This document shows positions 3,941 through 64,000 of a stretch of DNA of 64,000 nucleotides, piece by piece. Location of the stretch: NCBI GenBank assembly GCA_963281255.1, contig OY725498.1:3348001-3412000 (forward strand). Reading direction: 5' to 3'. The position numbers were made by a program, and so were the translations under genes. Within the stretch, counting starts at the first letter, position 1. Each line of letters begins with the position of its first letter. Below the pieces are notes generated by a model. The model was not told the origin of the DNA, made no database searches, and saw only the letters and a program-made list of their open reading frames with translations. Source of the DNA: Aphrocallistes beatrix. Its lineage: Eukaryota > Porifera > Hexactinellida > Sceptrulophora > Aphrocallistidae.

Positions 3941-6030
3941 TCAGTCATCATTTCCACCATCATCATCATCACGAATAAGGGTGTTCACAAAAATATCTTG
4001 GTTACTTTTAAGCTCTTGGCTAGAAGGAGGCTTTCGAATAGCAAACTTGCGATTTGTTAATAGTATGGGATCACTGTGAGAAATCATTCGAACGAATATA
4101 TCCTTTAAATTTTCTTCAAATGAAAACTTGCGAGCAAGACGATCTCTATATCTCCGAACATATTTGTTAGAAGCCTCGAGTCCTTCTTCAGATAGGTGTT
4201 CCAATCCATGGCCTTCGTTTAATTTTGAGATGATTTCCGGTGCATGTGGTAACAACTTGTGTAATGTAGGGGAAATATTAGCCCAAGGAAATTCACGAAG
4301 TATTGACAAGTAGGTATTACTGCAAACATTTGCTAGTTCTTCTGTATTCACTCTTTTGCTGCTATTATAGATGCGTAGGATTGCTCCTAGGCATGTGTGA
4401 ATTTCAATTATGTTGGGCTTGAACTTAGATGGAATTACTGTCAAAATCAAGTAGAGGAAATCTTGCTCTTTGTCATCCTTTCTTATCAAGCATCGTCTTA
4501 CCACATTACCAGTAGTCGTAGTTCCAACTTGTGTCGAAGGGATGTCAATGATAATATTTAGATTGTCTTTAAATAAACTTGTAATGAATGTCTTAGCATC
4601 TGAGACTTTCTTAGAAGTTGGTGACCACTTAAATATTCCTGAGTGCAAATGACTAATAAGGTTTAGAAACCATCCAAAACATCGGAGATATGCATGCAAA
4701 GGCGAACTGGGAATTGTGTCTAAGTCAGATATTGGTCTGTGTGGAATGTTGAATCTTTTGTCAGAAGATAATGAGAGGAATTCCGTTAACCTCTTCAAAT
4801 AATACTTTAGCATCTGTGATTGATCGATTGATTGGGAATCAGTCTTTAACCATTTCCGGATCATGGATGTGTTTGAATGTTGCTGTACAGAACTGGCAAC
4901 ATGCTCCTCCCGAATTTTAGCCATTTTTCCATCCAATTGTGAACGCTGAATTTCAACTTCACAAAAGCCGTTAGTTAGTTCTAATCCATTTTCTGTAATC
5001 TGTGTAGACTCCTTATTGATTAGTGTATCCATGAGATATCGAATATTGTTTTCGTTCTCCTGTAGAGCTAGTATCGCAACGGGTCTGATTGAGAAAGGAG
5101 AATTAGGCAGTAGGTTTTTCCAAATCAGTTTGTTCTCGATGTCGGATATAGAAATGACCTTAAACGCAAATAAAATAAAACTTTTCGTTGAAATATCGGG
5201 GTGAGTGGCTTGCTGATAAACTTGGTGTCAGCCAGAACTTCAGATTGCTGGCAATTTCATTGCCAGAAGCAGTCAATATTCTGTTTACTGTGTGAGTCAA
5301 AAGCTTGCTGTAAGATACAGCAATGCCTACTTGATGTTCTCGATCGACTGAAAATATGTCATTTGTCAAGCAAATTTGAGATAGATGTGTAGCTAATCGA
5401 TTAAATCCTGGAATATGGACATTTGCATCTGAAAGTAATAAACGTCTTAAATCGATGTATTTCTTCTTTCCAATTTCTAACAAATCCATCAAGAACGCAG
5501 CTTTATCACAGGTTAATTCATTGCAGACTGGACCGAAGCTTCCCTTAGCAATGATTTCTTTGCAAAACTTGGCACTATCGAAGTCGTATTCACCCTGTGA
5601 ACATAGCATCATCAGGTAACAGGATACTTCTTTACTGGAAACATTTTTTCGTTCAGCAACAATCTCAAGATGTGTTAGTAGAGAGGACAATCGGTTACGT
5701 AAACCTTTAGTTGATAATTCATTCAGAGGCTTACGGGTGGGTCTACTAAAATCTTCTTCGAAAACAGCAGTAGATTGGCTAGAGGAAACACTACCAATTA
5801 CCATGTCTTCATCTGAGTATTGAGAACCCGTACTCAATCTCGGATATTTAGAAGGTGGGGTGTAAAAGGGTATTACATTCCAAGTTGATACGTCGGCTCG
5901 CTTCAGGTATTCTCTCCTTTCTTCTCTAAGGCTTGAAAATTTTCTCCGAACTGAATCATGCGCAGTTTCTTCCAAACTATTGAGGACAATAAACTCAGAT
6001 GCGATCGAAGATATCGTTTTGTTCTTCTGT
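3941..6030 (-). pseudogene. Transib/RAG1-like transposase, decayed
   Basis: Two minus-strand frames (5,975-5,160 and 5,160-3,941) join by one frameshift near 5,200; the second is open upstream into the first. The C-terminal ~200 residues follow the layout I know from RAG1 and Transib: a G-N-x-x-R-R motif, then H-K-L-L-P-H-A-P-E-I-I, then S-E-E-G-L-E-A-S-N-K followed by R-R-Y-R. The Glu in that last block aligns with the third catalytic acid (RAG1 Glu962). An L-D-G-K-M block may hold the second catalytic Asp (RAG1 Asp708). A candidate for the first Asp and the CxxC zinc pair were not found. The N-terminal frame has A-A-F-L-M-D-L-L and an arginine-rich start. Total length of about 640-660 residues is short for the family, fitting an internal loss. 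The reading begins in-frame upstream of 5,975, near an acceptor-like AG at about 6,030. Family assignment is from recalled similarity. Confidence 0.6.
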
Positions 6031-6690
6031 GCAGTGAAAAAATATGTATGCTTCTTCGTTATTCATGATGAAAAATAGAGCGAGCTAATAATCAACCACA
6101 ATAATTATTTATGATTGCCATGGAATAAAATTAGGTAATTATAAACGAACTGACATTTTAAAATCGCAAAAAAAATATCGTTGACACTTCCTGACACCGT
6201 AGTTTAAAATTTATTTTGTAGAGGATAAAAAATGCTATTAGAAGAATGTAATGGAACGTTTCGCAAGTGAAGGAAAAAAAAGTCCTATAACTTTTAATGA
6301 AGCGGTGTATCTTTTTATAGCAGTTGACAAACATACTGGTTTAAAATTAGAATAATAAATTCCATTTGATCAAAGGAGTAACGATTGATACTTTTTATTA
6401 TTCACCAACAAAAGAACTTTCGATTGATATACTATAAATAGCGGATATTTGATATATTAGAAAACTAAAATATTAGAAATTACATCATGGCTGAAAATTG
6501 AAAACAAAATTCTATTTTTGGAATGTCTATTACAATCTCTTTTGAATAGACGTAGGAACAAAATAAAATCATTATTGTGGGAATGCTAATTACTTTCCGA
6601 GGTTTGTGAGGGTGCTGAATTCAAATATCAACATTATTAAGCAATCCAAGGTTATGATTTTGATCCTATTTCCACATAATGTGCCACTGT
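6031..6690. other. AT-rich stretch upstream of the Transib-like relic
   Basis: No coding frame, terminal repeats or promoter could be supported. It may hold the missing terminus of the Transib-like element, but no inverted repeat pairing with the other side was found. Confidence 0.4.
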
Positions 6691-9092: not shown

Positions 9093-9311
9093 TTAATTAG
9101 AGGTAAGTTTAAGTATCTTCCTTTGAGTATCTTTGGGACAAGAGGTAGTAGAAGTAATATTCTTGGCCTTGTTGTTGAGTAAACAGTTACTTGAAGTCAT
9201 TAAAATACAACGTAGCATTTCTTTTCCGTCAATACAGCAATCAGTACACTCAAAAGCCCAATCCTCACATTCTTCATCCTCAATTTTTAGAATAACCAAC
9301 TGAGGCTCATC
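9093..9311 (-). pseudogene. P-type transposase C-terminus
   Basis: The last 72 codons of a minus-strand frame match in layout the C-terminus of the P transposase at 55,000-55,288: a C-x2-C pair, then an S-x-N-C-L-L-x-N-K motif and a Lys/Arg-rich tail. In the P family this tail follows the nuclease core. Here everything upstream is replaced, in frame, by gypsy reverse transcriptase, giving a chimeric reading of 235 codons. The gypsy insertion or a later deletion removed the rest of the gene. Confidence 0.55.
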
Positions 9312-10687
9312 CAAATGCTCCAGGTGCGTATCGAAACTGGGATAGTGGACACATGCGTCATCAACAAATGCCTGTACATTCGGACACCCTCGTAGAGCCT
9401 TGTCTACCGCTCGCTGATAGGTAGCCTGTGAGTTTGACAATCTAAAAGGCATGCGGTTGAATTCAAACTGGCCGCGCGTTGAAACAAACGCAGTGAACTC
9501 CCTATGCTTTTCCTTCACAGGCACGCTCCAGTAAGCGGATGCCCCATCCAGTGTAGAGAATACAGTTGCCCCTCCCATACGATCGAAAACATCTCGGGGA
9601 TCCGACATCGGATAAGCATCTCGCTTCGTCACATCGTTGAGATCCCGGAAATCTACGGCAAATCGATGGGTTCCGTCCTTTTTCTTCACTAAGATCACTC
9701 GACTCGCCCAAGAGGAAGAAGAGGGACGTATGATCCCATTCTCGAGCATTTCATCTATCTGCTTGGATACCTCCGCCTCAATTTCAGGAGAAACACGCAA
9801 CGGCCGGCTTCTGATAGGCCGCTCATCCAGAAGAGTGATAACGTGTTCCGCGGTTCCAATTTCGCGCGGGCTCTTCGGGTTCTCCGCGAAAACGTCTTTC
9901 TATCTCGACAGCACCTTGCGTATGGCTGTCTCTTCTCGCAGTGATAGTTTCGGGTTTATATCGAACCTGGCCTCCAAGCTATCTCCCTCCTTTCCCATTT
10001 TCCCATCTCTGCATAATTTCTGCTCTAGTCGCCGCGTATCCCCCGCGTGCCGCAGCTAGAGGTTTTCCAACAACCACCTAGCCTAACTCTCATGCTTTCC
10101 CAATCGAAAGTAGTATTCTTGAAGCGCGCGAGGAACCTTCGCCCCAATATAACCACCCTATTGTTAGTATCGAGTACTTCGATTTCGTGTTCTAGTGGTC
10201 GACCATCCCCCACATCTATCGCCACGCAGGCCGTACCACAGACCGCAAGCGCTGTCCGCCCTAGCCCATACACTTGACTGTACTTTGTGCTGTAAGGGAT
10301 ATTCATCTTTTGTACGGTGCCTCTGTCCACCACCGAAGGATCCGCCCCCATGTCCATCATTACATTGATGGGTTTGCCGTTCCATTTAACTGGTACCACA
10401 AACGCCGTCTCATGTACAACACTATGCTGCGTTGTGGCTAGAAATACCCCTCTTCGACTTCGTGTATGTGGGCAATAGCGGACCTCGTGTCCTCTTTCGC
10501 CACATTTCGCACAGTGCCGTTCCGGGCATTGGGCCATAAAGTGCCTGTCCGAGGCGCAAATAAAGCACCGACCCTTCTTAGGGAATTGGCTTGCCGGATA
10601 CTTCCTTGTAGGTCCATCCCGCCTCCCCATTGCCACTTTGCTGCGTGGCGCATCCTTATATGTATAGAAACAGTTGAGAGCTAACAT
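9312..10687 (-). pseudogene. Ty3/gypsy gag-pol relic
   Basis: Minus-strand readings cover, in order: zinc knuckles (C-F-I-C, then a C-x2-C-x4-H-x4-C box), a retropepsin-like site reading M-M-D-M-G-A (the usual D-T/S-G triad has Met in the middle), and reverse transcriptase through F-V-D-D. RNase H and integrase are missing, cut off at the P transposase tail. A stop near 9,901 separates protease from reverse transcriptase, where the frame also shifts. The RT reads R-V-S-P-E-I-E-A-E-V, nearly identical to the copy at 59.1 kb, so both belong to one subfamily. No LTRs were found. Confidence 0.75.
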
Positions 10688-21259: not shown

Positions 21260-22556
21260 CGTAGGGCACTCGAAAAGTTTTGACGTTTGCTATGAAACCA
21301 TTAATCTAGAAGAAAGATTTATGGTTAATTCGTTTCATTTTGCGGTTATTAGTATACACTGAAAATTTCATTCATTTATCTTTCATACTTCCAGAAATAT
21401 TTTACTTGTTAGTCTGCATGGCTTCTAACTTGCTTACATCATCCTCATATTTCACAAGACGTGATTTTCGTGCAATGATTTTGATTTTATTCAAAATGAT
21501 AAAGACGAGGCAGGAGATCCATGAAACTTCACAGGAACATTTCCCAGATGTTGCTCCTTCTTTGAGTACAGTTGAGTGATGGTACAGAGAATTTACTCAT
21601 GGGAACTTCGTTCTAGAGGATGCTCCTCGTGCAGGGAGACCGAGTGTTTTCCACAATGAACAAAATGTGGATCAAGTACTGGAACTAGTAATCCAGGATT
21701 CTCATGTTACATATGCTCAGATAGAGCATGAAACTGGCCTCTCATCGGGTACTATTAATGTCATTATACAGAAAGAACTTTGTCTACGAAAGTTGTGTGC
21801 CCGCTGGATCCCCCATTCTTTGACTTTAGAGCAAAAATCGGTCCGAGTTGACTTTTGCAAAATTATGCTCAAAAGATTTGATAATGGAACTTCAAGGGCT
21901 GTTTCGGATATTCTTACAGGGGATGAAACATGGATATACAATTATGATCCGGAAACAAAACAACAATCGAAGGAGTGGGTGGAAGAAGATGCACCACCTC
22001 CAACAAAAGTAGGAAGGGTGAAATCTGTAGGGAAGCAAATGTGGCCAATTTTTTTTAGATCCAGTGGGTTTGTAGCAGCTGTGGCGCTTGAGGATAGAAA
22101 AACAGTTACTGCCGATTGGTACACCACAGTATGCCTCCCCAAAGTCATCACAGAAATAAATTCACAGCGTGAAAAGACGGGTGTCAGGGGAATTTTGCTC
22201 CATTATGATAACGCATCATCGTACACCGCACTCAGAAAGTTTTTGGAAGATTCTGGACTTAGAACACTGCACCATCCTCCCTACAGTCCAGACCTAGCCA
22301 CTTGCGACTTCTGGCTGTTCCCTACGATAAAGAATGAGTTGCGTGGAAAGAGATTTTCATCGAATGAGGAGCTGGCGGGGGCACTTTTCGAGGTGATCGA
22401 AACCATACCCAAAGATGAGTGGAAAATGTGTTTTCAGAAGTGGTTTAGTAGAATGAAAAATGTATAGAGTCTCATGGAGAGTATTTTGAAAAAATGTAAT
22501 ATAAATCTTCATACTAACTCTTTGATATGTAGGTGAACGTCAAAACTTTTCGAGTG
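21260..22556 (+). mobile_element. mariner element 1
   Basis: Inserted at TA in an arm of F1 (the intact arm in other copies reads CACAATAGAGCTTAGG). The ends share CACTCGAAAAGTTTTGACGT in inverted orientation; the left end has seven extra bases (CGTAGGG) lacking at the right, so the right end is probably trimmed. It contains one transposase gene. Confidence 0.85.
21418..22467 (+). pseudogene. mariner transposase with one premature stop
   Basis: The reading starts M-A-S-N-L-L, shows the helix-turn-helix region (E-I-H-E-T, A-P-S-L-S-T-V-E), meets a TGA at 21,577 where the family has a W-x-R-E-F block, then stays open for 266 codons. Catalytic blocks: G-D-E-T-W-I-Y-N-Y-D-P, H-Y-D-N-A-S-S, and Y-S-P-D-L-A-T-C-D-F-W-L-F-P. 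The spacing between the second and third Asp counts to 32 residues, two fewer than the 34 of classic mariner. The family cuts and pastes DNA at TA sites. The stop makes this copy inactive unless read through. Confidence 0.85.
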
Positions 22557-23550
22557 TAGAGCTTAGGAATGTATTAACAGCATATATAAATATGGTGTCT
22601 AAGTACCCATATCCGTTGTTAAAATTTAGATTAGTCATCATATTGTTGCGCAATAGGCAACATTTGTGACAAATTTGGTGATTTTCAGAGGCCGTTTAGG
22701 GGCACTTCTAAGTGTTTTACTAAAATATTTTTCGCATAGAACTGAGATGTGAATGGGTTAATACGAATTTCATGGAATGTTGCTACATTCCAGTGTTGCT
22801 ATGGAAACGTGTTTTGGTCAGTTGGGATCATATCTTGAAAGCCGCAAAAGCTAGACATTCAATTGTAATTCCATTTGATAGCCAATATACTATTTCCTAT
22901 TAAGTGATAATATAATCTATTTGTCTAAATTCAATGGTTTACGAGTTAACAGACAATTTATCACATTGGTCACATTTGGTAATTTGCCGACTATCTCGTA
23001 AACCATTGAATTTAGACAAATAGATTATATTATCACTTAATAGGAAATAGTATATTGGCCATCAAATGGAATTACATTTGAATGTCTAGCTTTTGCGGTT
23101 TTCAAGATATGATCCCAACTGAACAAAACACGTTTCCATAGCAACACTGGAATGTAGCAACATTTCATGAAAAAATTTCAAATTTTTCGTATTAACTCAT
23201 TCACATCTCAGTTCTATGCGAAAAATATTATAATAAAAACACTTAGAAGTGCCCCTAAACGGCCTCTGAAAATCACCAAATTTGTCACAAATGTTGCCTA
23301 TTGCGCAACAATATGATGACTAATCTAAATTTTAAAACGGATATGGGTACTTAGACACCATATTTATATATGCTGGTAATACATTCCTAAGCTCTATTGT
23401 GCTTTGTTAATGATTTAAGGCAGCTCATGTATTAGCTCAACCATCTTCTACCGCATCCCTAGTCCCAAATTCGCAAGTTACTGTGAGGCCTTATATACAG
23501 TAGGCTATGAATGTGTATATTACAATTCTTCACATGAGACACAACTATCT

Positions 23551-28394: not shown

Positions 28395-28513
28395 GTTTGT
28401 ATATATTTTGCCATAGATTAGGTTGGGGAATCAAAACTTGTACTTCTTATCCGATTGTACTCCTTATCCGTGTTCGTATTAACGAGAGTTGACTGTATAT
28501 GTATGTATATATA

Positions 28514-28990
28514 TCTGTAAAGAATTGATTGAAGAAACTGCCAGGCGCAGAAAGCTAATTTTTGGCATGCGGAAGTCTTTTGGCTATGGCTCCACTAAGT
28601 TCTGAGCTCAGACCAAAATGTCGACTCATCATGGAATTATGACGTCATTGTCACATTTTTAAAAGTTAAGCAATACAGTTATTCGAGCATATCTCAGCTA
28701 TTATAGGAGATAGAAGGCTGAAATTTTAAAAGAATATATATATTAATATACCTAACATATGACCCAACTATTATCAAAAAATGATGACTCATCACTCTGT
28801 TATGACGTCATCATTACGCATCAAAATTTTAAAATTGACAAATTTGATGATTTTTTCGTAATATCGATTATAACAGTAGGACAGAGGTATTTAGAGATGT
28901 TTTCTCCCTTATAATTAATCAATGTGACCCCAGGCGCCCAAAAGGCGCCTCCGGCGGACACTGTCTGCCAACCATCCAGTGCAAGCAAAA
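28514..28990 (+). repeat. ~490-bp repeat, nearly full copy
   Basis: Head CTGTAAAGAATTGATTGAAG, two TGACGTCA octamers, then a degenerate GC tail (GGCGCCCAAAAGGCGCC, then GGCGGACACTGTCTGCC). It ends just upstream of the Helitron coding region. Confidence 0.8.
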
Positions 28991-29167
28991 TGTTTACTAA
29001 TGACCCAATTTAGTTAAGAATTTTAGTACATAAATATTGCCCGCAAGCAATATGTAGTAGTCATAGCGTGACTATTGCTATTCCTATGAGGCCTATTCTA
29101 TTTCAATAATATAAGGGAATAATTTTGAGTGTGTTTTGTCCCAATATTTCTGAATCAAAAATAGAAT

Positions 29168-30615
29168 ATGCCTAAATTGAACAAGCGTGGGCGCCAAACC
29201 CGTAAAAGTGGCACTAAAGCTGAGAGAGCGAGGAAAGTTCGAGACAAAGAAACTCCTCAAGAGCGACTCCTTCGCCAACAACATGACCGTGAACAGAATA
29301 TGCTGCGTTTGAGAGTCCTAACCCCTAAGTCTAAAAGGAGGCGTTTTCAAGAAAAGCGAGATCGCACTCGACTTCACTTGAAAAAAGAGACGCCTACCGG
29401 GAGAAGAGCCAGCCTGAGAGATTTGGTTGAACGGCAGGGTCCACGGTTGAGAGCTGAGACTCCGACGAGGAGAGTCACACGCTGCCTTGATCTGAGTCAG
29501 CTACAGGCTTCCCGCTTCGACAGTGAGACGGAGGACGCTCGCGAAGTTCGTCTCCTAGATCTGCGGGATCGACAGACATCCCGGTATGACAGTGAGATGG
29601 ACGAGGCCCGCCAAGTTCGCCTCCTAGAAATGCGGGATCGTAAGACATCCCGGTATGACAGTGAGACGGACGAGGCTCGCCAAGATCGCCTCCTAGACCT
29701 GCGGGATCACAAGCCTGGAAGATAGCATGTGAAACGGAAGAGCAAGTCAGCTCACGTCAGAAGTACCAGGCTAAGTTGTATGCTAAGAGAGTTAAATCTC
29801 GCATTGTCCATAATTTTGCTAGGTCAATTATTGCCACCGAAGTTCCTGATAGTATTGTCGACGAGCATTCAAGTGGCAGTATGACATACAGCTGCTCCGT
29901 GTGTCAGGCAAAATTCTGGGCGGGTGAGAAGCTCTCAGGTAATACTAAATCCTGTTATAAGTTCTCCTTATGTTGTGGGGAGGGCAAAGTTGTTCTACTT
30001 CCTGTGGCTCCACACCCTGAACTGTTGATGCACCTGCAAACGGCTTCAGACCCGCGGGGAAGAGCGTTTAGAGAACAGATCAGAGCATACAACAACGCTC
30101 TTGCATTCGCTTCTCTTGGAGCGAACCTCGATAAGGGTCTGGCTAATGCTAAGCGGGGAGTGTACACATTTCGTAGACACGGAGTGATGTACCATCGTAT
30201 CGGAAGGTTGATGCCTAATGAAGGCGAGGCACCCACATTCGCTGCATGAGGTTAATCTTTATGTGGCATTTCTTAGACAAGAGGTCGCCAGCAGGGATAT
30301 AGTGCTGTACGCGCGGAAGGGCGGTCTTCAGCACATTAATGATACTCACCGTGCGTACGATACACTGCACTATGTCCTACTATTCCCACTTGGTGAAGAC
30401 GGCTGGCATCTCAACATTCCTTACTCGAAAGGGAGAGGAAATGTCATCGCTATGGAGTATTATGCATACCGACTGATGGTACGGAGCCGCTTGAGTCCTC
30501 TACACCTGAGTGGTAGACTTTTCCATCAGTATGCTGTGGATGTATACGCCAAGATAGAACAGCAGCGCCTGAACTACAACAGGACCAATCAGAAGAAGAT
30601 TCGTGTGGATCTTTA
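29168..30615 (+). pseudogene. Helitron Rep-helicase, N-terminal part
   Basis: Frames at 29,168-29,725, 29,776-30,249 and 30,218-30,615 join by frameshifts. The first carries three tandem copies of a 24-residue unit of the L-R-D-R-x-T-S-R-Y-D-S-E type, usual at Helitron N-termini. The second has a C-x2-C pair and a long conserved block (H-P-E-L-L, R-E-Q-I-R-A-Y-N-N-A-L-A-F-A-S). The third ends in Y-A-K-I-E-Q-Q-R-L-N-Y and K-K-I-R-V-D-L, the entry to the Helitron Rep domain. There the reading is cut by the gypsy insertion. The HUH nuclease motif that should follow is not found on the far side. Confidence 0.8.
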
Positions 30616-30728
30616 ATTCCGAACTTGATCAAGTACAGGAAAGTGATCAGATAGAAACCTCAATGTTAAGGAGGTCTTCACGTATGAGAAGATTACCACA
30701 ATACCTGAGAGATTACGATTTATCCTAA
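30616..30728 (+). other. Displaced C-terminal tail of gypsy pol
   Basis: In the frame following the Helitron break the sequence reads N-S-E-L-D-Q then R-R-S-S-R-M-R-R-L-P-Q-Y-L-R-D-Y, the Arg-rich ending common in Ty3/gypsy integrases, and stops at TAA 30,726-30,728. A purine tract and LTR follow directly, as expected for the 3' end of pol. It lies upstream of its own gene. Confidence 0.8.
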
Positions 30729-30734
30729 TACATT

Positions 30735-30939
30735 AAGGGGGAGATGTGTAATGAATGTTAATTATAGTACTGTAAATGCGAACATGAAGATTGGAAATTC
30801 TGATTAGTTAATTAGTAGAGTGAGCATCTGGAAATCATTTAAGAGTAATATATATATTGTATCAGTATCGAGATTGGAAGTATGTCTGTATAGAGATTAT
30901 GAAAGATTGATTATTCGTATCTTACAATTGGTAGCAGAG
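30735..30939 (+). promoter_or_regulatory. Gypsy polypurine tract, LTR and tRNA-primer site
   Basis: A purine run AAGGGGGAGA (30,735-30,744) precedes a ~182-bp LTR (30,745-30,926) that starts TGTGTAATG and ends CTTACA, the usual TG...CA limits. Two bases later TGGTAGCAGAG (30,929-30,939) is complementary to the 3' end of initiator-methionine tRNA, a common gypsy primer. The LTR would hold promoter and poly(A) signals. Only one LTR is present in the element. Confidence 0.75.
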
Positions 30940-30952
30940 AGTGGTTGTTCAA

Positions 30953-31806
30953 TGGCGGATCGTTTTGTTAGTATTCCTCGTGTATTTGACAGTGGTAATT
31001 TTGAGGAATGGTTGGAACGCTATGAGATTTGTGCAGCAGCTAATGGGTGGAAGGAAAAGGAAAAGGCTCTTCGATTACCAACGCTCTTGGAGAAAGAAGC
31101 TCTCGCAGTATACTTGGAGTTGGACGAAGAAACGAGGAAAGAATATCAAGCACTGAAAGGAGCACTAATGAATTATTTTCAACCTCCAGAAACTCGTTTT
31201 ATTGCACTGGATGAATTTGAGTCGAGGAAAATTCTTCCTGGTGAATCGCCTCAAGAATTTTTGCACGTGCTAAAGCAACGCCTAGCCAAGGCAATTCCTG
31301 ATATGGACAGAAATGCTCGCGAACAATTGCTTTTGCATCGTTTTCTCAGTGGTCTACCACAACAAATTGCCAAGAGTGTTCGTGTCTCTCCAGAGGTTAA
31401 CAATACTACAGAGGCATTGAAGAGAGTAAAGTTACTGATGCTCTGTCAGCCAGAATATTCGGTTGCACCGATTGCAGATAAAACAAGTGAGGAAATGGCT
31501 AAAGATACTAAATTAGACGAACTGGAAGCGAAATTAGATCGTGTGTTGGCTGGTTTAGCAGAAGAAAAATCACCGATAATGGTTGTTGGGAGAAGGAACT
31601 TCGGGGGAGGCGATAGGATTAAATGTTACAATTGCCAAGCTCTAGGACACATCGCCGTGAATTGCCCACAAAGGAATCGTCGGACGGTTTGCTATCTATG
31701 TGGAAAGACCGGCCATATTCGCAGAACGTGTCCTTTAAACTCCAGCAGACCGACAGGCAGGGTCACCGGTCGGTCTTATTATCAAAACGGCCCCAAAAGC
31801 GATTAA
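30953..31806 (+). CDS. gag: Gypsy Gag, intact
   Basis: An open frame of about 284 codons from the ATG after the primer site (the frame is open further upstream, into the LTR). It shows a helical capsid-like part (N-F-E-E-W-L-E-R-Y-E-I, F-L-S-G-L-P-Q-Q-I-A) and two CCHC zinc knuckles near the C-terminus (C-Y-N-C-Q-A-L-G-H and C-Y-L-C-G-K-T-G-H). Gag forms the particle and packages the RNA; the knuckles bind nucleic acid. It has no stops or shifts. It overlaps pol by up to 184 bases in the -1 frame, so pol is probably made by -1 frameshifting; a slippery site was not pinned down. Confidence 0.85.
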
Positions 31807-34800
31807 ATCTACAACATTATGTAGTATCAGCTAGAGACCAATTCGACGCTTCACTCGCAACTATTGAAATCGATATCGGACAACTTAAGGTGAGGGCATT
31901 ATTAGATTCGGGTTCGTCAGTTTCCTTAATTGTAGCTGATCTGGTCAAAAAGGGATGTTATGAAATTGATAGGAATTACTTCAAACAATTAGTTTCAGCA
32001 ACTGGTAACAATTTAGAGGTTATGGGGAAAGTTTTATTACCAATACTAATAGGCGGAACTCAGACAAATCATGAATTCACTGTGGTTTCAAGTTTAGTGA
32101 CTCCTCTTATTTTGGGAAAAGATTTTCTTTCAGCTCACAAAATAAGGTTAGATTTTGGAAAAGAATTGATTGAATGTCCAACCCTTGGATTTAATTCACC
32201 TTTCGACCATAAGAAGGTGGTTGTGAGTCGTTCGAATTTGATGAGCAATCAAGTCGACTTCAAGGATAACTGGAAGGAAGGCGAAGATACATGTCAGGTA
32301 CATGATAAATTCCTCAGACCTTTTCCTGGATCAGTTTCACTAATCACATCAGAACCGGAATCTAGTGGTTGTGAAGAATGTTATATTCCATGTTTCAATC
32401 AAGAGAAGTTTGAGTTGCCGGATTATCCTTCACAGTTGGAACAGCTTATTCTGGAATACCAAGATCGGTTTTCTACCACTCCTGGAAGGACTAATGTCAC
32501 AACTCATCAAATCTGTACAGAAGGGAGTCGGCCCGTTCGTCTACCGCCAAGACGAATGCCAGCACATTATAAATCTGAAGTAGAAGTTCAAATACAGAAA
32601 ATGCTTGATCAAGGAATAATTAAAGAGAGTAATAGCCCGTGGATTGCGCCAGCAGTTTATGTGATGAAGAAGGATGGAAGTTTAAGAATCTGTGTAGATT
32701 ATCGTGAATTAAACAAACGAACAATCAAAGACGCTTACCCTTTACCTTTGATAGATGATATACAATCTCATCTATCTGGGGCTGTGGTATTTTCTACGTT
32801 GGACCTAAATAGTGGTTACTGGCAATTACCCATTCACCCTGACGATTGTCATAAGACAGCTTTTACACCTGGTCCAGGTATGGGATTGTATGAATTTGTG
32901 TGTATGCCGTTTGGGGTATGCAATGGACCTTCTTCTTTTCAAAGAATGATGGAAACTGTGCTGCGAGGGGTTAGAGCATCAAAAGTATTTATTGACGATA
33001 TTCTCATATTTTCATCGGATATGAAGTCGCACTCTAACCACTTGAGAGAGGTATTTCAAAGATTAAGAGAGTCTAATTTGACTTTACGAGGTCGCAAATG
33101 TTGCTTGGCTCGATCGAGCGTTCGTTACCTAGGAAACATTTTTTCTGCTCAAGGAATGAGACCAGATCCTTCTAAGGTGGAGACAATTCGGGATTGGCCT
33201 CATCCGAAGGACATAGGCGCCCTACGGCAATTTTTAGGTCTTGCTTCTTACTATAGGAAGTTCATTGCCAAATTTTCAGATATAGCATCACCACTCTATA
33301 ACTTGTTGGAAAAGGATGTTCAATTTAGTTGGACTGTTGACTGTCAAAAAGGATTCGAACGCCTCAAGAATGCTTTATCAACTAGTCCGGTTTTGGGATA
33401 TCCTTCTCTGGACAAAGAGTTTGCTCTGTATACTGATGCGAGTGGAGTTGGCGTTGGTGCAGTACTAGAACAAGCGGGTAGGGTTATATCTTATGCCAGT
33501 AGGACACTAACCAAGGCTGAGAAAAACTATAGTGTAATTGAGAAGGAGTGTTTGGCATTAGTTTACGGAACGAAACAATTTCGGCATTATCTTCTTGGAC
33601 GAAAATTCAGAATAATCACAGACCACAAACCTCTATGCTGGCTTTCTGCTCAGAAAATGGAAGGTAGACTTTGCAGATGGGCTCTGGCTTTGCAAGAGTT
33701 TGATTATATTGTAGAATATCGCAATGGCTCAGAGAACATTAATGCTGATGTATTATCGAGGAAGCCTCTCACAGATATTTCATTATTGTGTGAATTTAGT
33801 CCCAGCATTGACCTTGATCGGGTAAGAGATAGCCAGGAGAAAGATTGGATTCTTGGAACAATTATCAGGCTTCTTCCAAAACAAGTAGACCGTTCCCCTG
33901 AAAGGGGAATAATTCCATGGAGATTTTGTCAAATTTGGAAGCAACTGAAGATAGTGGATGGGATTTTGTGTCGAGAATATGAAGCTGATAGATTCGGGGT
34001 TGCTCGCAGAGTGATAGTGGGACCTGATGAAATGAAGGAATCATTTTTACACCAAAATCATGATTCACCCAGTGCAGGCCATCAAGGATGGAGGAAGACC
34101 TTGGAAAGACTAAAGAAGGTAGTTTATTGGATTGGAATGGCAGATGATACCAGAGATTACTGTAGATCTTGTGATAACTGCATGAAGGCTAAACAAACTT
34201 TGCCTCCTAGGGCACCCTTGATTAGTACTCCTATTGGAAAAGCATGGGAAAGGATTGCAATGGATGTAATGGAGGTTCCAATTAATTCCAAAGGAAATAA
34301 GTATCTTTTAGTCATACAAGACTATTTTACCAAGTGGTTGGAAGCATTTCCTATACCAGATCAGAAGGCGTATCGTATTGTTGAGATTTTAAAATCTCTG
34401 TTCTGTCATTTAGGAGTTCCGAAATTTTTGCACAGTGACCAGGGTAGGAATTTTGAGAGCTTAGTAGTGTCAAATTTATGTGATTTTTTCGGAATTAAAA
34501 AGACTCATACAACGCCTTATCACCCTCAAGGAGATGCATTGGTCGAAAGGTCTAATAGAATATTGTTGGACATGTTGCGTTCTTATGTTGCGAGAGAAGA
34601 ACAATGGGAAGATTTTCTTCCTTTAATGCTCTATTCGTATAACACTTCACATCATTCTTCAATACAAACAACTCCTTACATGTTGATGTATGGAAGAGAA
34701 CCAGGACCCTCATTCGGAATTGAAAAAGAGATAGGTTATGATCCAATAGGATATGAGAAGCAATTAAAGGAAAAACTTGAGAAATGTGAACAGATTGTTC

Positions 34801-35065
34801 GTACACATCTTACAACGGCTGCAGAGGAACAGAAAAGGTGGTATGATGCTAAGGCATCGAGAAGGATAGGATTTGGGGTAGGAGATGAAGTATGGCTCAG
34901 TATTGCTCACAGAGGTAAATTAGACCCTCGTTGGGAAGGGAAATGGAAGGTGGTGGAAATATTAAACGATGTCAACCTCAAACTACTCAATGAGGACGGA
35001 AGAAGTCGGATAGTTCACGTTAACAGAGTAAGGCCTAGATATGTGCGAGATCTGAAAAATTATAG
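31623..35065 (+). CDS. pol: Gypsy Pol, intact but for displaced tail
   Basis: One open frame of about 1,145 gypsy codons. Order: retropepsin (A-L-L-D-S-G-S-S), reverse transcriptase (F-S-T-L-D-L-N-S-G-Y-W, catalytic F-I-D-D), RNase H (L-Y-T-D-A-S-G), integrase with HHCC zinc site (H-x-G-H, C-x2-C near 34,165-34,185), catalytic D (A-M-D-V), D (H-S-D-Q-G-R-N) and E (H-P-Q-G-D-A-L-V-E-R), then the C-terminal W-E-G-K-W and V-N-R-V-R-P module. The gypsy part ends near 35,057; the frame then runs on by chance into Helitron sequence to 35,465. Retention of every motif without a stop points to a young copy. No env-like gene is present. Confidence 0.9.
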
Positions 35066-37541
35066 TTATCAGGGGATTCGGGTGTCTATGAGCAATGGCT
35101 TAAATACAGAGTTTAATGATGTGTTGAGCCGACAAAGGCATACCACTTTGACTGGATGGTTTGTTGCAAACCAGGAATTCCATTGCGCTAGGGAGGTTAC
35201 ATATACTAATTTCCCCGATGAGTTTGTATGGGATAAATCGAAGCGCGAATGGAAGTTGAAGGTGAAGGGGCATGGCACCATGATAGGTCGCATTTATGCA
35301 ACTCATCCCGTTGAAGGGGAGCGTTTTTATCTAAGAATGCTCCTCAACCATGTCACAGGATGTACGAGTTTTCAGGACATCCGTACTCTCGCTGATGGTA
35401 CTGTCTGTGAAAGCTTTAACGAGGCCGCGGCAGACTTGGGTTGTTGGAAGATGACACGGAGTTAGATCAGTGTTTGGCAGAAGCGGCTGTTTCTGTGATG
35501 CCCACACAGATGCGCCAGCTCTTTATCACGATCCTCCTATTTAGTGTCCCAACTGATCCCTTAGCCCTTTGGGAACACCATCAGGCCTCTTTATCTGAGG
35601 ACTTTCTGTGTCGTGCTAAGCGAGTAGTTCTTGACGTCCAATTGGATGAGCACATTATAAACTGTGTATTATTGGATATTGAGAATCGCTTACAGAGACA
35701 TGGGAAGTCTTTAGAGGATTACCCAGGTATGCCTGTCCCTAAGTATATGCGTAATCCGTACGAAGAACCCAGAATCATACAGAATGAACTTGATTATTGT
35801 GTTAGTGATCTGTTGGAAATGGTGCGTGTCAATCTGCCAATGATCAATGCAGACCAACTGATTGTCTTCAACACTGTGATGAAGGCTATTGATGATTCCG
35901 CGGTATATACTAAGGTGTTCTTCGTGGATGGAACAGGCGGTACAGGTAAAACGTTCATTTACAATACACTGTTAGCCAAGGTCCGTTCTAGGAGAGAGAT
36001 TGCCCTCGCAATGGCTTCTTCGGGGATTGTGGCACTCCTCCTATATGGTGGCAGGACTGTACATTCGAGAATGAAAGTTCCTCTCTCGACCAATGCACAT
36101 TCTGCGTGTAGCATTACTAAGCAGAGTGTGCTTGCCCGTCTCATCCAGCGTGCAAGTTTATTGGTCTGAGATGAGGCTCCAATGTCTCATAAGCATGTTG
36201 CTGAATGCATGGATCGAACTCTGAGAGAACTGTGCTCTTGCGATCTACCATTTGGCGGCAAGGTTATGGTATTTAGAAGTGATTTCCGTCAGATTCTGCC
36301 TGTAATTAGACGAGGAACCAGAGGTGATGTTGTTTCTGCATGTCTCAACAGATCATCTCTCTGGCAATATGTTAAGGTTTTAAATTTAACTATTAATATG
36401 TGCCTACGGAAATTATCTTCTCAGGACTCACTTGAAGTGAGTGAATTCTCCAACTTCTTATTGAGGGTTGGAGAGGGCAGTAAACTCGAAGATGAGGATC
36501 ACATGATTCACATCGACGACAAGTTTATTGTCCAGGGAAATGATATTTCTGATTTGGTTTCTTTTGTCTATGGTGACATTGTGAACAATTACCTTGATCA
36601 GGATTTCATGAATCGCCGCATCTTAATGTCTCCAAAGAATGAGACAGTAGAAGAATGAGACAGTAGAAGTTATGCGACAGATACCTGGAGATGATCAAAC
36701 ATTTTAAAGTGCAGATTCAGTTGATGATATGCAGGCTGCCATATACTCCACGGAGTTCTTGAACTCTCTAAATCCTAATGGTATGCCTCATCATCGTCTG
36801 AAGCTTAAAGAGTTTGCATCTATCATTCTCCTGAGGAATCTTGATTCTGCCCAGGGTTTGTGTAATTGCACTCGCTTGACTGTAAGATCGTTTAGTAAAC
36901 GTCTTATAGATGCGGAGATTGCCACAGGTATCCATGCGGGGACTCGAGTATTCATTCCTCGCATTCCACTACTTACTCCCACATATTCTGGCCTTCCCTT
37001 TATCTTAAAGCGAAGACAGTTTCCAGTACGGCCTGCTTTCTGTATCACAATAAATAATGGTCAAGGCCAGAGTTTAGAGACTGTTGGTATTTTACTCCCT
37101 TCCCCTGAAGCCATATTCAGCCATGGTCAACTCTATGTGGCTCTTAGTCGCGTTCAGAATCCTAGCGGTTTGAAGATCATGGTTTGTGGAGGACAACAGT
37201 CTACTGGAGGAGGAGTATTGGTTAAGAATGTCGTATATCGGGAGGTTTTTCTAACTCACGTTGGAGAGCTTTCGTCATCTAGCCAGGATTTGATTGATTC
37301 CTTTTCGCTGGATGATATATCGTTCGATTCTTCCCAGCTGTCACCAGTTCTTTCTCACGTCAAAAAGAGGGTAATCATGGCTGATTCTGAGAGGAAGAGT
37401 AAAGTATCAAAAATCTTCGAGTTCAGTCAGAGTAGCGTTGTTACATTGGAGGATCCTGAAAACTATGCTTTTCAGAGTAATCGCGTTACATTTGAATCGT
37501 CTGATGTTGTTTTCAATGCAATTATTGGCATCCAAGTATGA
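35066..37541 (+). pseudogene. Helitron PIF1-type helicase part
   Basis: After the gypsy insert the Helitron reading resumes with Y-Q-G-I but jumps at once to the pre-helicase region (H-T-T-L-T-G-W-F, P-D-E-F-V-W-D-K, G-E-R-F-Y-L-R). Several hundred residues holding the Rep nuclease are therefore missing. Helicase motifs follow: Walker A G-T-G-G-T-G-K-T near 35,930, and Walker B where a TGA at 36,167-36,169 interrupts L-L-V-x-D-E-A-P. Later come F-R-Q-I-L-P, I-N-N-G-Q-G-Q-S and L-Y-V-A-L-S-R. Further breaks lie at about 35,450, 36,656 and 36,720. The enzyme family unwinds DNA during rolling-circle transposition. This copy is dead. Confidence 0.85.
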
Positions 37542-37613
37542 CTGGACATTCAGATATCGCTCTCATTAATTACAACTCTCGCAATACGATATAATCTGAC
37601 ACAATCAATTGGG

Positions 37614-38182
37614 TTGGAGAATGAAGCGATTTTACCGAATAGAGAAGATATAATGTCGCGTGGCCCTATTTTGCACTACTATCAGTCACTTAAAGCTAGA
37701 CTGCGCAATAAATTTGGTCCTCAAATTTATTTGTGTCCAGTGTATGGCGACGGTAACTGTCTCTATCGGACTCTATATCATGTCATTTTTGGTAGTGAGA
37801 GCTCTTATCGTATTCTAAAACACAGTCTGATCTACAAATTTAAGAGCACTCCAGCGCATTTCTATAACGTTATGCGTAGATCAGGCATTTTCAGTGATCA
37901 GGAACTGATTGAGCATATGGATCGCGTATCTGTTCTCAATGAGTGGGGTACTAACACTGAATTGAATATGATAGGGGCTTTGGCTCGGATAGATGTAGTA
38001 TCAATTAATGCTACCGACATAGATCCTTACTATTGGAATATCCAGCCAGTTTATATTCATGAATAGCTGGAAGTTCCTTTAGAGTGTGACCCTATTTATG
38101 ATGGTCGTAAATTATGTGTTTTATTTCACCGGAATCACCATCAGATAGGCATGGAACACTTTGATCCATTCTATAATAGTTA
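37614..38182 (+). pseudogene. OTU-type cysteine protease domain of the Helitron
   Basis: A frame of 150 codons shows Y-G-D-G-N-C-L-Y-R-T, the Asp/Cys site of OTU deubiquitinase-type proteases, then a typical W-G-T-N-T-E-L block. A TAG at 38,064 ends it, but the same frame continues to an H-H-Q-I-G-M-E-H-F-D-P-F block that would supply the catalytic His. OTU domains are a known accessory of some animal and plant Helitrons and Helentrons; their role is not settled. It lies directly after the helicase, where such domains usually sit. Confidence 0.75.
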
Positions 38183-51625: not shown

Positions 51626-51804
51626 CAGTGGTCTTCAAACTTTTTTCCCAGCGTACCCCCTGGCTATTTTTTGAACTTTACGCGTACCCCCAAGTAAGGA
51701 GAAATTATGGTTGAATGAGATATAACATACTTAACAGACTAGTCTCAAAGAGAGCTCGCGTACCCCCATGAGAAGCCTCGCGTACCCCAGTTTGAAGACC
51801 ACTG
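51626..51804. mobile_element. hAT-like MITE A, 179 bp
   Basis: The ends CAGTGGTCTTCAAACT and complement are of the well-known hAT type, and TTCTAAAC is duplicated exactly (51,618-51,625; 51,805-51,812). It lies in the 5' flank of the transposase gene. A close copy in the opposite orientation is at 53,190-53,346. Confidence 0.9.
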
Positions 51805-52780
51805 TTCTAAACCACCCATAAAGTATGAATACAAATTTACTACTATACAGTCTAGGTCAATTTTTTACCACATTCTAATTATCACACCATTCACCCCTCC
51901 TTTTTTGCTTATACTCTCTATTTACCATTTTCTTCTTTTTTTATTTGCTAGAAACATGCCCAATAGGTGTAATGTTGCTAATTGCACTTCAAATTATGAT
52001 GGTACTGAATATACTCCTGTATTTGAGATGTTGAATCACTGGCCAAAGGAAGTACAAGATGAATGGAGAAAGTTTTTACACCGAGATGATGCCTGGCAAT
52101 TGACCAGAGTTTTTATCTGTGCTAAGCATTTTAGTGAGAAGGACCTGTTACTTACTGTTGAAATACCTCAGAGCGATGGTTCTATCAATAAGTTTCCCCG
52201 CAAACCTGGTCTTCACAAAGGTGCAAAGCCTACCCTTCTACCAAATTGTCCATCTTACTTACAAAGTCAAAATGAACCTGCGGAACGTCTTGACCGTGAT
52301 GAAATAGATATCCGACACTTCCATCATGCGCTTGAGTTGAGTATTGCTGAGCACCAAACAGAGAATGAAAAGTACTCAGTAATTACCATTGATGAAGTCC
52401 AACAGAAATATTCAATATTAAACTTGCATGAAGAATGGTTTTATATTCGCTCTAGTCAATCTAGCCTGCACATCTTCAAAAAAATCTTATCTGGACACTT
52501 ACTCATCATGTCTCACCAAATAATATTTAATGAAGAATTGAATGTCGAATGTTTTCATAATGAGGTACCAATACGAACTCGGATTTCTAAGATTACTGAT
52601 ATACGTCAAATTTCTGAATTACTGCAAGATATCGACACGTATCAAAAACCAGATGAAATTGAGATAGAAATCACCAAAGCTATCAAGAGTGTTGAGTACA
52701 TAATAGGAAAGTTAACAGATAACGAAGATACCACGATGCATAATTCTCAAACTTTACTTAGCCGTTTACAATTTATTCTA

Positions 52781-53095
52781 CACTGCCTGGACAAAAGTAT
52801 TCGTACACCTCATAATTCCCCATACAAATAGTTATAATACTGAATTATTTAACGAGTCAGGGTATTTAATTGGTAAGAGATAAGCTTAATTTGACTTCAA
52901 ATTCGAATTCCCCACATTTAAATTACCCACTTTATAAGTTTTCAACTTAATTACTCTTCTTCAAGATTAAGTATTTTCAGCATTTGTTTTCCTATGCTGC
53001 TGTTGCGAGTGATCACCATTGTTATGATGGCATTGGTGGTATGAGGTGGCACAGTTTGAAAATCTTTAACCATGTGGGAGTGTAAACTAGTTGAA
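52781..53095. mobile_element. Tc1-like MITE, copy 3, truncated
   Basis: Starts CACTGCCTGGACAAAAGTAT after a TA inside the P transposase and matches the first ~310 bp of copies 1 and 2; it ends abruptly at the next insertion near 53,096. Confidence 0.8.
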
Positions 53096-61451: not shown

Positions 61452-63218
61452 AATAGCCTACTATAATAAGGCTTAACTTGCGAATTTAGCACTAGGGATG
61501 CAGTAGAAGATGTTTGAAGAAATACATGGAGCTGCCTTAAATCATTAACAAAGAACAATAGAGCTTAGGAATGTATTACCAGCATATATAAATATGGTGT
61601 CAAAGCACCCATATCCGTTGTTAAAATTTAGATTAGTCAGCAAATGATTGCCCAACAGGCTATATTTGGGTCAAATTTAGTGATTTTCAGAGGTCGTTTA
61701 AGGGCACTTCTAAGTGTTTTTATCATAAAGTTTTTCCATAGCCTACTGTATATAAGGCCTCACAGTAACTTGCGGATTTGGGACTAGGGATGCGGAGGAA
61801 GACCGTTGAACTAATACATGAGCTGCCTTAAATCATTTACAAAGCACAATAGAGCTTAGGAATGTATTATCAGCATATATAAATATGGTGTCAAAGTACC
61901 CATATCCGTTGTTAAAAATTTGATGATTTTCTGAGGCCGTTTAGGGGCACTTCTACGTAAGTGTTTTTATTGTAAAATTTTCGCATAGAACTGAGATGTG
62001 AATAGGTTCATACGAAAAATTCTAAATTTTTCGTATGAACCTATTCACATCTCAGTTCTATGCGAAAATTTTACAATAAAAACACTTACGTAGAAGTGCA
62101 AATTTTTCGTATTAACCCATTCACATCTCAATTCTATGCGAAAAATTTTACAATAAAAACACTTAGAAATGCCCCTAAACGGCCTCTGAAAATGACCAAA
62201 TTTGTCACAAATATAACCTATTGCGAAACCATATGGTGACTAATCAAATTTTTAACAATGGATATGGTTACTTTGACACCATATTTATATATGCTGAAAA
62301 TAAATTCCTAAGCTCTATTGTGCTTTGTAAATGATTTAAGGCAGCTCATGTATTAGTTCAACGGTCTTCCTCCGCATCCCAAGTTCCAAATCCGCAAGTT
62401 ACTGTGAGGCCTTATATACAGAGGCTATGGTTTTTCGCATAGAACTGAGAAGTGAATGTGTTAATACGAAAAATTTGGAATTCTTTCATGGGATGTTTTT
62501 ACATTCCAGTGTTGCTATGGAAACGTGTTTTGGTCAGTTGGGGCTATATCTTGAAAACAGCGATAGCTAGACATTCAAATTTAATCCCATTTGATAGCAA
62601 AAGGCTACTTCCTATTAAGCAATAATACAATTTCTATGCCTTAATTCAATAATTTACGAGTTATTAGACAATTTATAATATTGGTCACATTTGATAATTT
62701 GTCGAATATCTCGTAAACCATTGAATTTAGACACATAAATTGTATTATAGCTAAATAGGAAGTAGACTATTTGCTATCAAATGGGATTATATTTGAATGT
62801 CTAGCTATCGCAGTTTTCAAGATATAGCCCCAACTGACCAAAACACGTTTCCATAGCAACACTGGAATGTAAGAACATTCCATGAAAGAATTCCAAATTT
62901 TTCGTATTAACACATTCACTTCTCAGTTCTATGCGAAAAATATTATAATAAAAACACTTAGAAGTGCCCTTAAACGGCCTCTGAAAATCACTGAATTTGA
63001 CTCAAATATAACCTGTTGCGAAATCATTTGATGGCTAATCTAAATTTTAACAACGGATATGGGTGCTTTGACACCATATTTATATATGCTGGTAATACAT
63101 TCCTAAGCTCTATTGTGCTTTGTTAATGATTTAAGGCAGCTCATGTATTTCTTCATCCATCTTCTACCGCATCCCTGGTCAAGTTACTCTTAGGCCTTAT
63201 ACTATATAGTAGGCTATG
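61452..63218. mobile_element. Foldback element F2, outer copy
   Basis: The same family as F1: arms pair over ~500 bp around a centre near 62,680. The left end reads AATAGCC (CATAGCC with one change), the right end GGCTATG. GGTCTAG (61,445-61,451) and GGTTTAG (63,219-63,225) are a 7-bp target duplication with one change. F3 is inserted in its left arm. Confidence 0.8.
61737..62429. mobile_element. Foldback element F3, inserted in F2
   Basis: A 693-bp palindromic copy with CATAGCCTACTGTATATAAG ends. GTTTTTC is duplicated exactly on both flanks (61,730-61,736; 62,430-62,436), and the outer copy reads through cleanly once it is removed. Its centre near 62,020-62,030 is a perfect or near-perfect inverted repeat of ~70-bp arms. 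Confidence 0.9.
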
Positions 63219-63225
63219 GGTTTAG

Positions 63226-64000
63226 TTATTTTTAAGATAGTATGACCTCAAATCAACAAAATTCCTTTCCAGTGGCAGAGCAAAATTTCATGATTAAAAT
63301 CAAGGCATTAATCCATTCACAGCTCGGGTATATGCGAAACACGTAATACGACTCAGAAGTGTCTTCGGCTTTGAAAATCAATATAATAATCATAAATAGA
63401 TCCTAATGCGCAATCATATGATGACTAATCAAATTTTTTAGGAACGGATATGGCTACTTTGGCGCCATATTTATAAATGCTAGTGATACATTCCTAAGCT
63501 ACGCTCTGTGTGATTAATGATTTTAGGCAGATCATGTATTAGTCCAAACATCTTCGACAGCATCCCTGGCCTATTTTTGAAATTTAGATGGCACAACTTA
63601 AATACAGAGGGCTATGACCTACTCTATGGGGATGGATAACAAACATCTTGGGATCAAATTAAGCCAAAATGCTATTCCAATGATATAGATTTGCATTTTG
63701 TAGATAAGGAATTTTAAAAATAATTACAATTCGTTAATTCATATTTAAAATTTAATGATTCGCGAAAATATTATTATTTGAATTCATATTTGCTGAATTC
63801 ACAGATGCACGAAGAAGTATGGGCAAATAAAATAGAAATAGTAGCTGCAAGCAGCATGATCGGTGCGGATATTTTGGTTCGCATATCCATTGGGACACCA
63901 ATAAAATATGGAGCAAAATAAGGAGATTTGGCTATACAATACTTGTATCACAGGAGGGTTACAGCACTCCTGCAATTTTTTGACAAACTTTGACTACAAC
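63226..64000. other. Decayed foldback half and AT-rich edge
   Basis: From about 63,240 to 63,620 the words of a foldback right arm recur in degraded form (GATTAATGATTTTAGGCAGA, CAGAGGGCTATG). The last ~380 bases show no feature. Confidence 0.45.

Follow-up and report, generated by a model that had tools for sequence, protein, structure and literature searches.

The window analysed here, a 64,000-nucleotide stretch of the glass sponge Aphrocallistes beatrix (contig OY725498.1, positions 3,348,001 to 3,412,000; G000:C12:3348001-3412000), holds a Ty3/gypsy-like long terminal repeat (LTR) retrotransposon whose parts stand in rotated order inside a Helitron. The order is pol tail, polypurine tract, single LTR, primer site, gag and pol, and the insert amounts to one 4500-bp unit with TTTAAT at both ends. 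The two breakpoints fall at the same place within pol, short microhomologies lie at the joins, about 1 kb of the Helitron is missing, and the LTR termini and target duplication that mark a normal integrase insertion are both absent. The single LTR lies between the polypurine tract and the primer site, the arrangement expected of a captured circle. The reading we consider probable is that a one-LTR circle of the retrotransposon was captured where a Helitron had broken, through microhomology-mediated end joining, or was copied in from such a circle. A circle accounts jointly for the rotated order, the single LTR and the coincident ends, and the deletion of about 1 kb means that break repair fits better than a clean insertion. 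The initial annotation of this DNA had already recognized the rotated order with one LTR and the position of the insert within a Helitron, and its core idea, that a circle with one LTR was opened within pol and entered without integration through LTR ends, is the reading best supported here, although the details of the edges on which it leaned did not hold.

The affiliation of the insert is indicated by its proteins and by related copies in the 100.5-Mb, 28-contig assembly that was searched, whose contigs are called C1, C2 and so on below and for which the counts from all probes and patterns are lower bounds. The pol domains follow the order protease, reverse transcriptase, RNase H, integrase expected of Ty3/gypsy elements (Pfam RVP, RVT_1 and RT_RNaseH in one piece, Integrase_H2C2 and rve in the next), and gag carries two zf-CCHC stretches. 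Two LTRs with a target duplication in the 4-6 bp range of Ty3/gypsy elements are found in the family copies on C2, C11 and C14. On these features the insert is assigned to a Ty3/gypsy-like LTR retrotransposon family that is low-copy as far as the gag search shows, as the gag probe matches at least 12 rows in the genome. The primer site, which begins 2 nt past the LTR as in other copies, we take to be initiator-methionine-like; a transfer RNA (tRNA) scan of the window found no tRNA. The initial annotation called the element coding-intact, and gag and pol are indeed open; pol, on the other hand, has been separated from its stop and final 36 codons and continues into the Helitron. Because the second LTR is missing, the insert should be dead as a retrotransposon.

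The standard form of the element, with which the initial annotation had proposed to compare the insert, is present on C2: it has two LTRs and a TAAG/TAAG duplication, and its pol is continuous over the break. The copies on C11 (TAAG/TAAG) and C14 (TATG/TATG) are integrase-type insertions with internal deletions. Solo LTRs with exact 4-bp duplications occur on C8 (CAGT), C3 (TGTG), C17 (TTTA) and C16 (ACTT), and a second solo LTR on C8 has a duplication matching at three of four bases (CCGT/CCAT). TGT...ACA ends and 4-bp duplications, the latter read by eye, are thus seen at the eight loci with both LTR ends readable, exactly in seven and with three of four bases in one; truncated, rearranged, diverged or one-sided loci (C3:2824212, C13, C3:2950977, C19, C8:615390 and two on C10) are left out of this count. 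The LTR borders were set by comparing 19 fetched stretches, several of them from one and the same copy. The copy at G000:C8:613890-617046 (L019) is rearranged: it is internally deleted, and its two gag segments point in opposite directions.

Comparison with C2 also fixes the edges of the insert. The C2 pol matches the window unbroken to 35117 and then runs directly into window position 30612 onward, the two matches overlapping by TTTAAT. Positions 35063-35117 are still retroelement in the C2 copy, and no relative of the Helitron matches the right flank before 35107, most of the matches starting at 35109; the right junction is therefore placed at 35112-35117. The initial annotation had set this edge at 35065 and taken 35063-35117, save for the first bases of that stretch, as restored Helitron. 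The AATT it saw at both ends and the TTA at both edges are products of that misplacement, the common junction sequence being TTTAAT at 30612-30617 and 35112-35117, and the in-frame empty site it derived is a coincidence of the wrong edge. A 27-base pattern across the pol break had one genome match at up to three mismatches, in C2, and pol is also continuous across the break in a more diverged copy on C13. If the circle is read as ...GAGTTTA^ATTCC..., with ^ marking the opening, the insert contains the whole 4500-bp unit once, and since TTTAAT stands at both of its ends, nothing has been lost at the break relative to C2 and at most six ambiguous bases are doubled.

The window copy differs from C2 by 1 substitution in 126 compared bases of the tail and by 12 in 2012 bases of pol. 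Having substitutions of its own to either side of the break, it is no duplicate of the C2 copy, and this candidate was rejected. Its nearest relative is C14, with 2 substitutions in 1172 bp (30927-32098) and 2 in the 180 bases of the LTR. A mere copy of C14 was likewise rejected, on account of these substitutions and of the internal deletion of C14. Divergence between the Helitron flanks and their nearest relatives is roughly 2-5%, and given the 2 differences in 1172 bp from C14, the insert is probably young relative to its host and would have entered an older Helitron.

The two flanks of the insert are parts of one Helitron family, and the window carries a Helitron_like_N fragment and a PIF1 helicase, the Rep (HUH) and helicase components of Helitrons. 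In 10 of 12 measured relatives, 963-1029 bp separate the junction points, the other two holding 399 and 1410 bp. One piece of this segment, taken from relative L048, matches Helitron_like_N (E 2e-19), and a second piece tested had no Pfam match; the window copy is without the segment. Since relatives hold about 1 kb of Rep-domain DNA between the junctions, the insert replaced Helitron DNA, and its removal does not restore the Helitron as the initial annotation had supposed. After ATCTTTA, the relatives read CTGTGG in 11 of 13 copies shown, with GATCTTTAATGTGG in L061 and GATCTCTACTGTGG in L062; at the right junction point, 14 of the 17 copies shown have GAGCTTGATGATG, L055 and L061 have GAGTTTGATGATG, and L065 has GAACTTGATGGTG. 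A 25-base pattern of the deleted empty site had no match elsewhere in the assembly at up to three mismatches. The right part of the Helitron also contains an OTU-like cysteine protease segment (37542-38066, + strand), a match with an E value of 9e-4 that does not reach Pfam's cut-off.

For the origin of this structure, we propose that the retrotransposon would have formed, or recombination between LTRs would have released, a double-stranded one-LTR circle, which would then have opened at TTTA^AT, close to the 3' end of pol. The opened circle would have patched a chromosome break within the Helitron, with loss of about 1 kb of the Rep domain, and the joins would have been made at short matches, TTTA on the left and AT on the right, in the manner of microhomology-mediated (alternative) end joining. 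By another route leaving the same footprint, a 3' end of the Helitron may have annealed to the circle, copied one full turn and re-annealed. The circular donor, the double-strand break as the first event and the repair enzymes that would have acted are what we infer from the structure. Short microhomology together with a target deletion, as expected of microhomology-mediated end joining, is what the locus displays. The left join has 4 bp in common with the Helitron, or 6 bp if the local ancestor resembled L061. At the right join AT is exact and lies inside GAGTTTAAT, which agrees with the Helitron sequence GAG[C/T]TTGAT at 7 or 8 of 9 positions (imperfect GAGTTTRAT). When the element and Helitron L048 are joined at random, 1.8% of the joins share at least 4 bp of microhomology and 16% at least 2 bp; at least 7 of 9 bases match at the join itself in 0.2%, and such a match lies in some 9-base window that touches it in 0.9%.

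Several points weigh against capture of a circle. The evidence comes from a single assembly. The exact overlap of 2 bp at the right join is ordinary by itself; only the imperfect match is notable, and it was spotted post hoc. L061 reads TTTAAT at the left and GAGTTTGAT at the right, so that the ancestral Helitron bases at the junctions are uncertain. The pol-Helitron fusion was not seen in other assemblies; the 9 protein matches, at 45-74% identity, each cover at most 66% of the junction region. Finally, end joining and templated synthesis are inseparable from one locus.

The last of these points concerns how a circle would have been used. In place of ligation of a linearised circle, template switching, by microhomology-mediated break-induced replication or strand-annealing synthesis, may have copied one turn of it. 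This overlaps with capture as preferred here, and we allot it a small but real share of the probability. The left microhomology, the imperfect 9-base match on the right and the gap in the Helitron fit priming and re-annealing, and filler-DNA capture has been put forward as a way in which Helitrons acquire genes. Nothing forces such copying to stop after exactly one turn, however, though re-annealing beside the start could do so, and neither further switches nor filler bases are seen.

A different explanation is that retroelement reads, perhaps from extrachromosomal circles, were misjoined into the Helitron during assembly. The claim does rest on an assembly, and there is a precedent: a permuted bdelloid rotifer scaffold has been explained as an assembled extrachromosomal one-LTR circle (PMC5408684). 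Here, however, overlaps of 4 and 2 bp would not suffice for an assembler to make the joins, about 1 kb of Helitron is missing just where the insert stands, the window copy differs from each of the copies compared on C1, C2, C11 and C14, and contig C12 is 4.8 Mb long. We regard such an artefact as unlikely. Less likely again is a tandem array (LTR-int-LTR-int-LTR) in the Helitron that later deletions trimmed on both sides. Tandem LTR elements sharing one LTR are known, and the flanking Helitron did undergo deletion, but two independent trims would need to end within one and the same 6-base stretch of the 4.5-kb unit, for which our own arithmetic gives a chance of about 13/4500, or 0.3%. Such arrays should also yield further full-length rows joining pol tail, LTR and primer site; a 344-base probe spanning these parts matched at least 25 genome rows, with the window row alone at full length among the matches listed. 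Least credible is that the Helitron lost 1 kb earlier, creating TTTAAT, and that a circle then entered by crossover within these bases, for although TTTAAT does stand at both junctions, six bases are too few for homologous recombination, no deleted copy free of the insert, which would read TTTAATGATG, was matched in the assembly at up to three mismatches, and no recombinase domain turned up when three pieces of the element were compared with Pfam.

If a circle was captured in the window, a second irregular copy of the family, on C1, may bear on the same process. This copy starts with GGGGAGATG, the end of the polypurine tract, followed by the LTR, and stops at the position equivalent to 35080 without a 3' LTR. 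Its flanks are a dispersed repeat, of which five relatives were aligned. Between the flanks, the closest relatives, C9 and C13:2124019, hold 31 and 34 bp that C1 lost, and the other three hold roughly 26-34 bp, lengths counted by eye. The bases GGGAGATG between the flanks are present in none of the five aligned relatives and therefore came with the C1 insert. The C1 copy is probably integrase-independent, and its sequence resembles that of a one-LTR circle which has about 1 bp of homology at each of its two joins and has lost some 157 of its bases. It can also be read, to the detriment of the circle, as linear complementary DNA (cDNA) that retained its polypurine primer and lost its right end, so that it supports the same circle route without proving it. 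Among five LTR-gag copies with both boundaries readable, three (C2, C11 and C14) are of the integrase type and two (the window and C1) are of the integrase-independent type, with a single LTR and polypurine-tract sequence before it; this tally leaves out C3:2824212, with its left flank only, and the copies on C8, C10 and C13 that are truncated, rearranged or diverged. That one-LTR circles of this family re-enter the chromosome recurrently via host break repair, a second route beside integrase, is possible but would be a tentative conclusion from these copies.

LTR elements commonly give rise to one-LTR circles as by-products, and these are as a rule regarded as dead ends. Pararetroviruses and hepadnaviruses have no integrase step, and their circular DNA is inserted by host repair and so becomes permuted; the element described here, in contrast, encodes an integrase, and copies of its family show integrase use. 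Other published systems resemble the proposed route in part. In mouse zygotes, LTR-retrotransposon sequence was captured at double-strand breaks with microhomology (PMC4516963), and as here, these captures had no LTR-end signature, showed short microhomologies and were not typical retrotransposition; the mouse inserts described there are truncated pieces, however, whereas the present case is a whole permuted unit, placed in a chromosome-scale assembly, and about 1 kb of its target has been deleted. In yeast, Ty1 cDNA is captured by end joining at chromosome breaks, and a complete cDNA, whether linear or circular, is named as one possible source (PMC10802722); this resembles the route proposed here. 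Extrachromosomal one-LTR circles are reported for nomad in Drosophila (PMC12132167) and in carrot (PMC9324142); they are the predicted type of donor but were reported outside the chromosome, whereas the circle here seems to be chromosomal. The Drosophila preprint proposes that circle formation prevents reintegration and so shields the genome from insertion (PMC12132167). The rotifer scaffold, of Vesta4b in Adineta vaga (PMC5408684), likewise has a rotated LTR element read as a one-LTR circle but was possibly assembled from an extrachromosomal one, whereas the insert here has chromosomal flanks on both sides.

Both the capture of LTR-element sequence at breaks and one-LTR circles were thus already known, and an integrated whole permuted circle seems to be a new variant; no description of an integrated, complete, permuted one-LTR element was found in the open-licence literature searched, coverage of which was partial. 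The insert suggests that one-LTR circles can at times be retained for good in the genome of an animal. A whole circle within a chromosome also makes circle re-entry countable in any long-read genome, the footprints to be searched being the order polypurine tract, LTR, primer site together with coincident breaks and a target deletion. The positions of the features discussed are collected in Table 1.

Table 1. Parts of the rotated element, its host Helitron and the second single-LTR copy (window positions unless a contig is given)
Feature	Position	Strand	Basis or remark
Left part of host Helitron, ending GGATCTTTA; last 4 bases TTTA common with retroelement	28496..30615	+	Relatives match, many up to 30615; several start near 28496, outer edge approximate; Helitron_like_N fragment
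Left junction, TTTAAT; TTTA is Helitron/circle microhomology	30612..30617	+	Comparison with C2 copy and Helitron relatives
C-terminal end of pol, 36 codons and stop, moved upstream of LTR	30618..30728	+	Agrees with C2 copy downstream of break except for one residue
Polypurine tract AAGGGGGAGA	about 30735..30744	+	Similar context before 3' LTR in C2, C11, C8 and C13 copies
Single LTR, 180 bp, TGT...ACA	30747..30926	+	Comparison with 19 stretches
tRNA primer binding site, TGGTAGCAGAG...	30929..30946	+	Distance from LTR as in other copies
gag, 284 amino acids, two zinc knuckles	30952..31806	+	Open reading frame (ORF) and Pfam
pol frame (protease, reverse transcriptase, RNase H, integrase)	31623..35117	+	1165 codons without stop; last 36 codons and stop at 30618-30728
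Open pol-Helitron fusion across right junction, chance product	31623..35465	+	ORF list
Right junction, TTTAAT, with AT as exact microhomology; GAGTTTAAT similar to Helitron GAG[C/T]TTGAT	35112..35117	+	Comparison with C2 copy and Helitron relatives
Right part of host Helitron: PIF1 helicase, OTU-like segment	35118..39000	+	Matches to relatives, Pfam; outer edge approximate
Second single-LTR copy	G000:C1:1773467-1777744 (L011 around 1480-1530, L003 around 1960-2000)		Polypurine-tract bases before LTR, without 3' LTR; about 30 bp of target missing

The remainder of the window contains further traces of mobile DNA. Two overlapping ORFs at 3941-6062 (- strand) are perhaps the remnant of a RAG1-like transposase; the ORF at 3941-5227 resembles proteins of the glass sponge Oopsacas minuta (Hexactinellida), some of which are labelled V(D)J recombination-activating protein or DNA-mediated transposase. 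Fragments of another retroelement, with reverse transcriptase and aspartyl protease, lie at 9093-10687 (- strand). An ORF at 21580-22467 (+ strand) matches Pfam Transposase_1 and is presumably mariner-like, and another at 51743-52831 (+ strand) has a THAP domain and is perhaps derived from a DNA transposon. Dense inverted and direct repeats occupy 61529-63576, with related copies near 22500-23500. Among named proteins, those of O. minuta stand closest to a neighbouring transposase-like ORF, at 75% identity, and one ENA protein is 99% identical.

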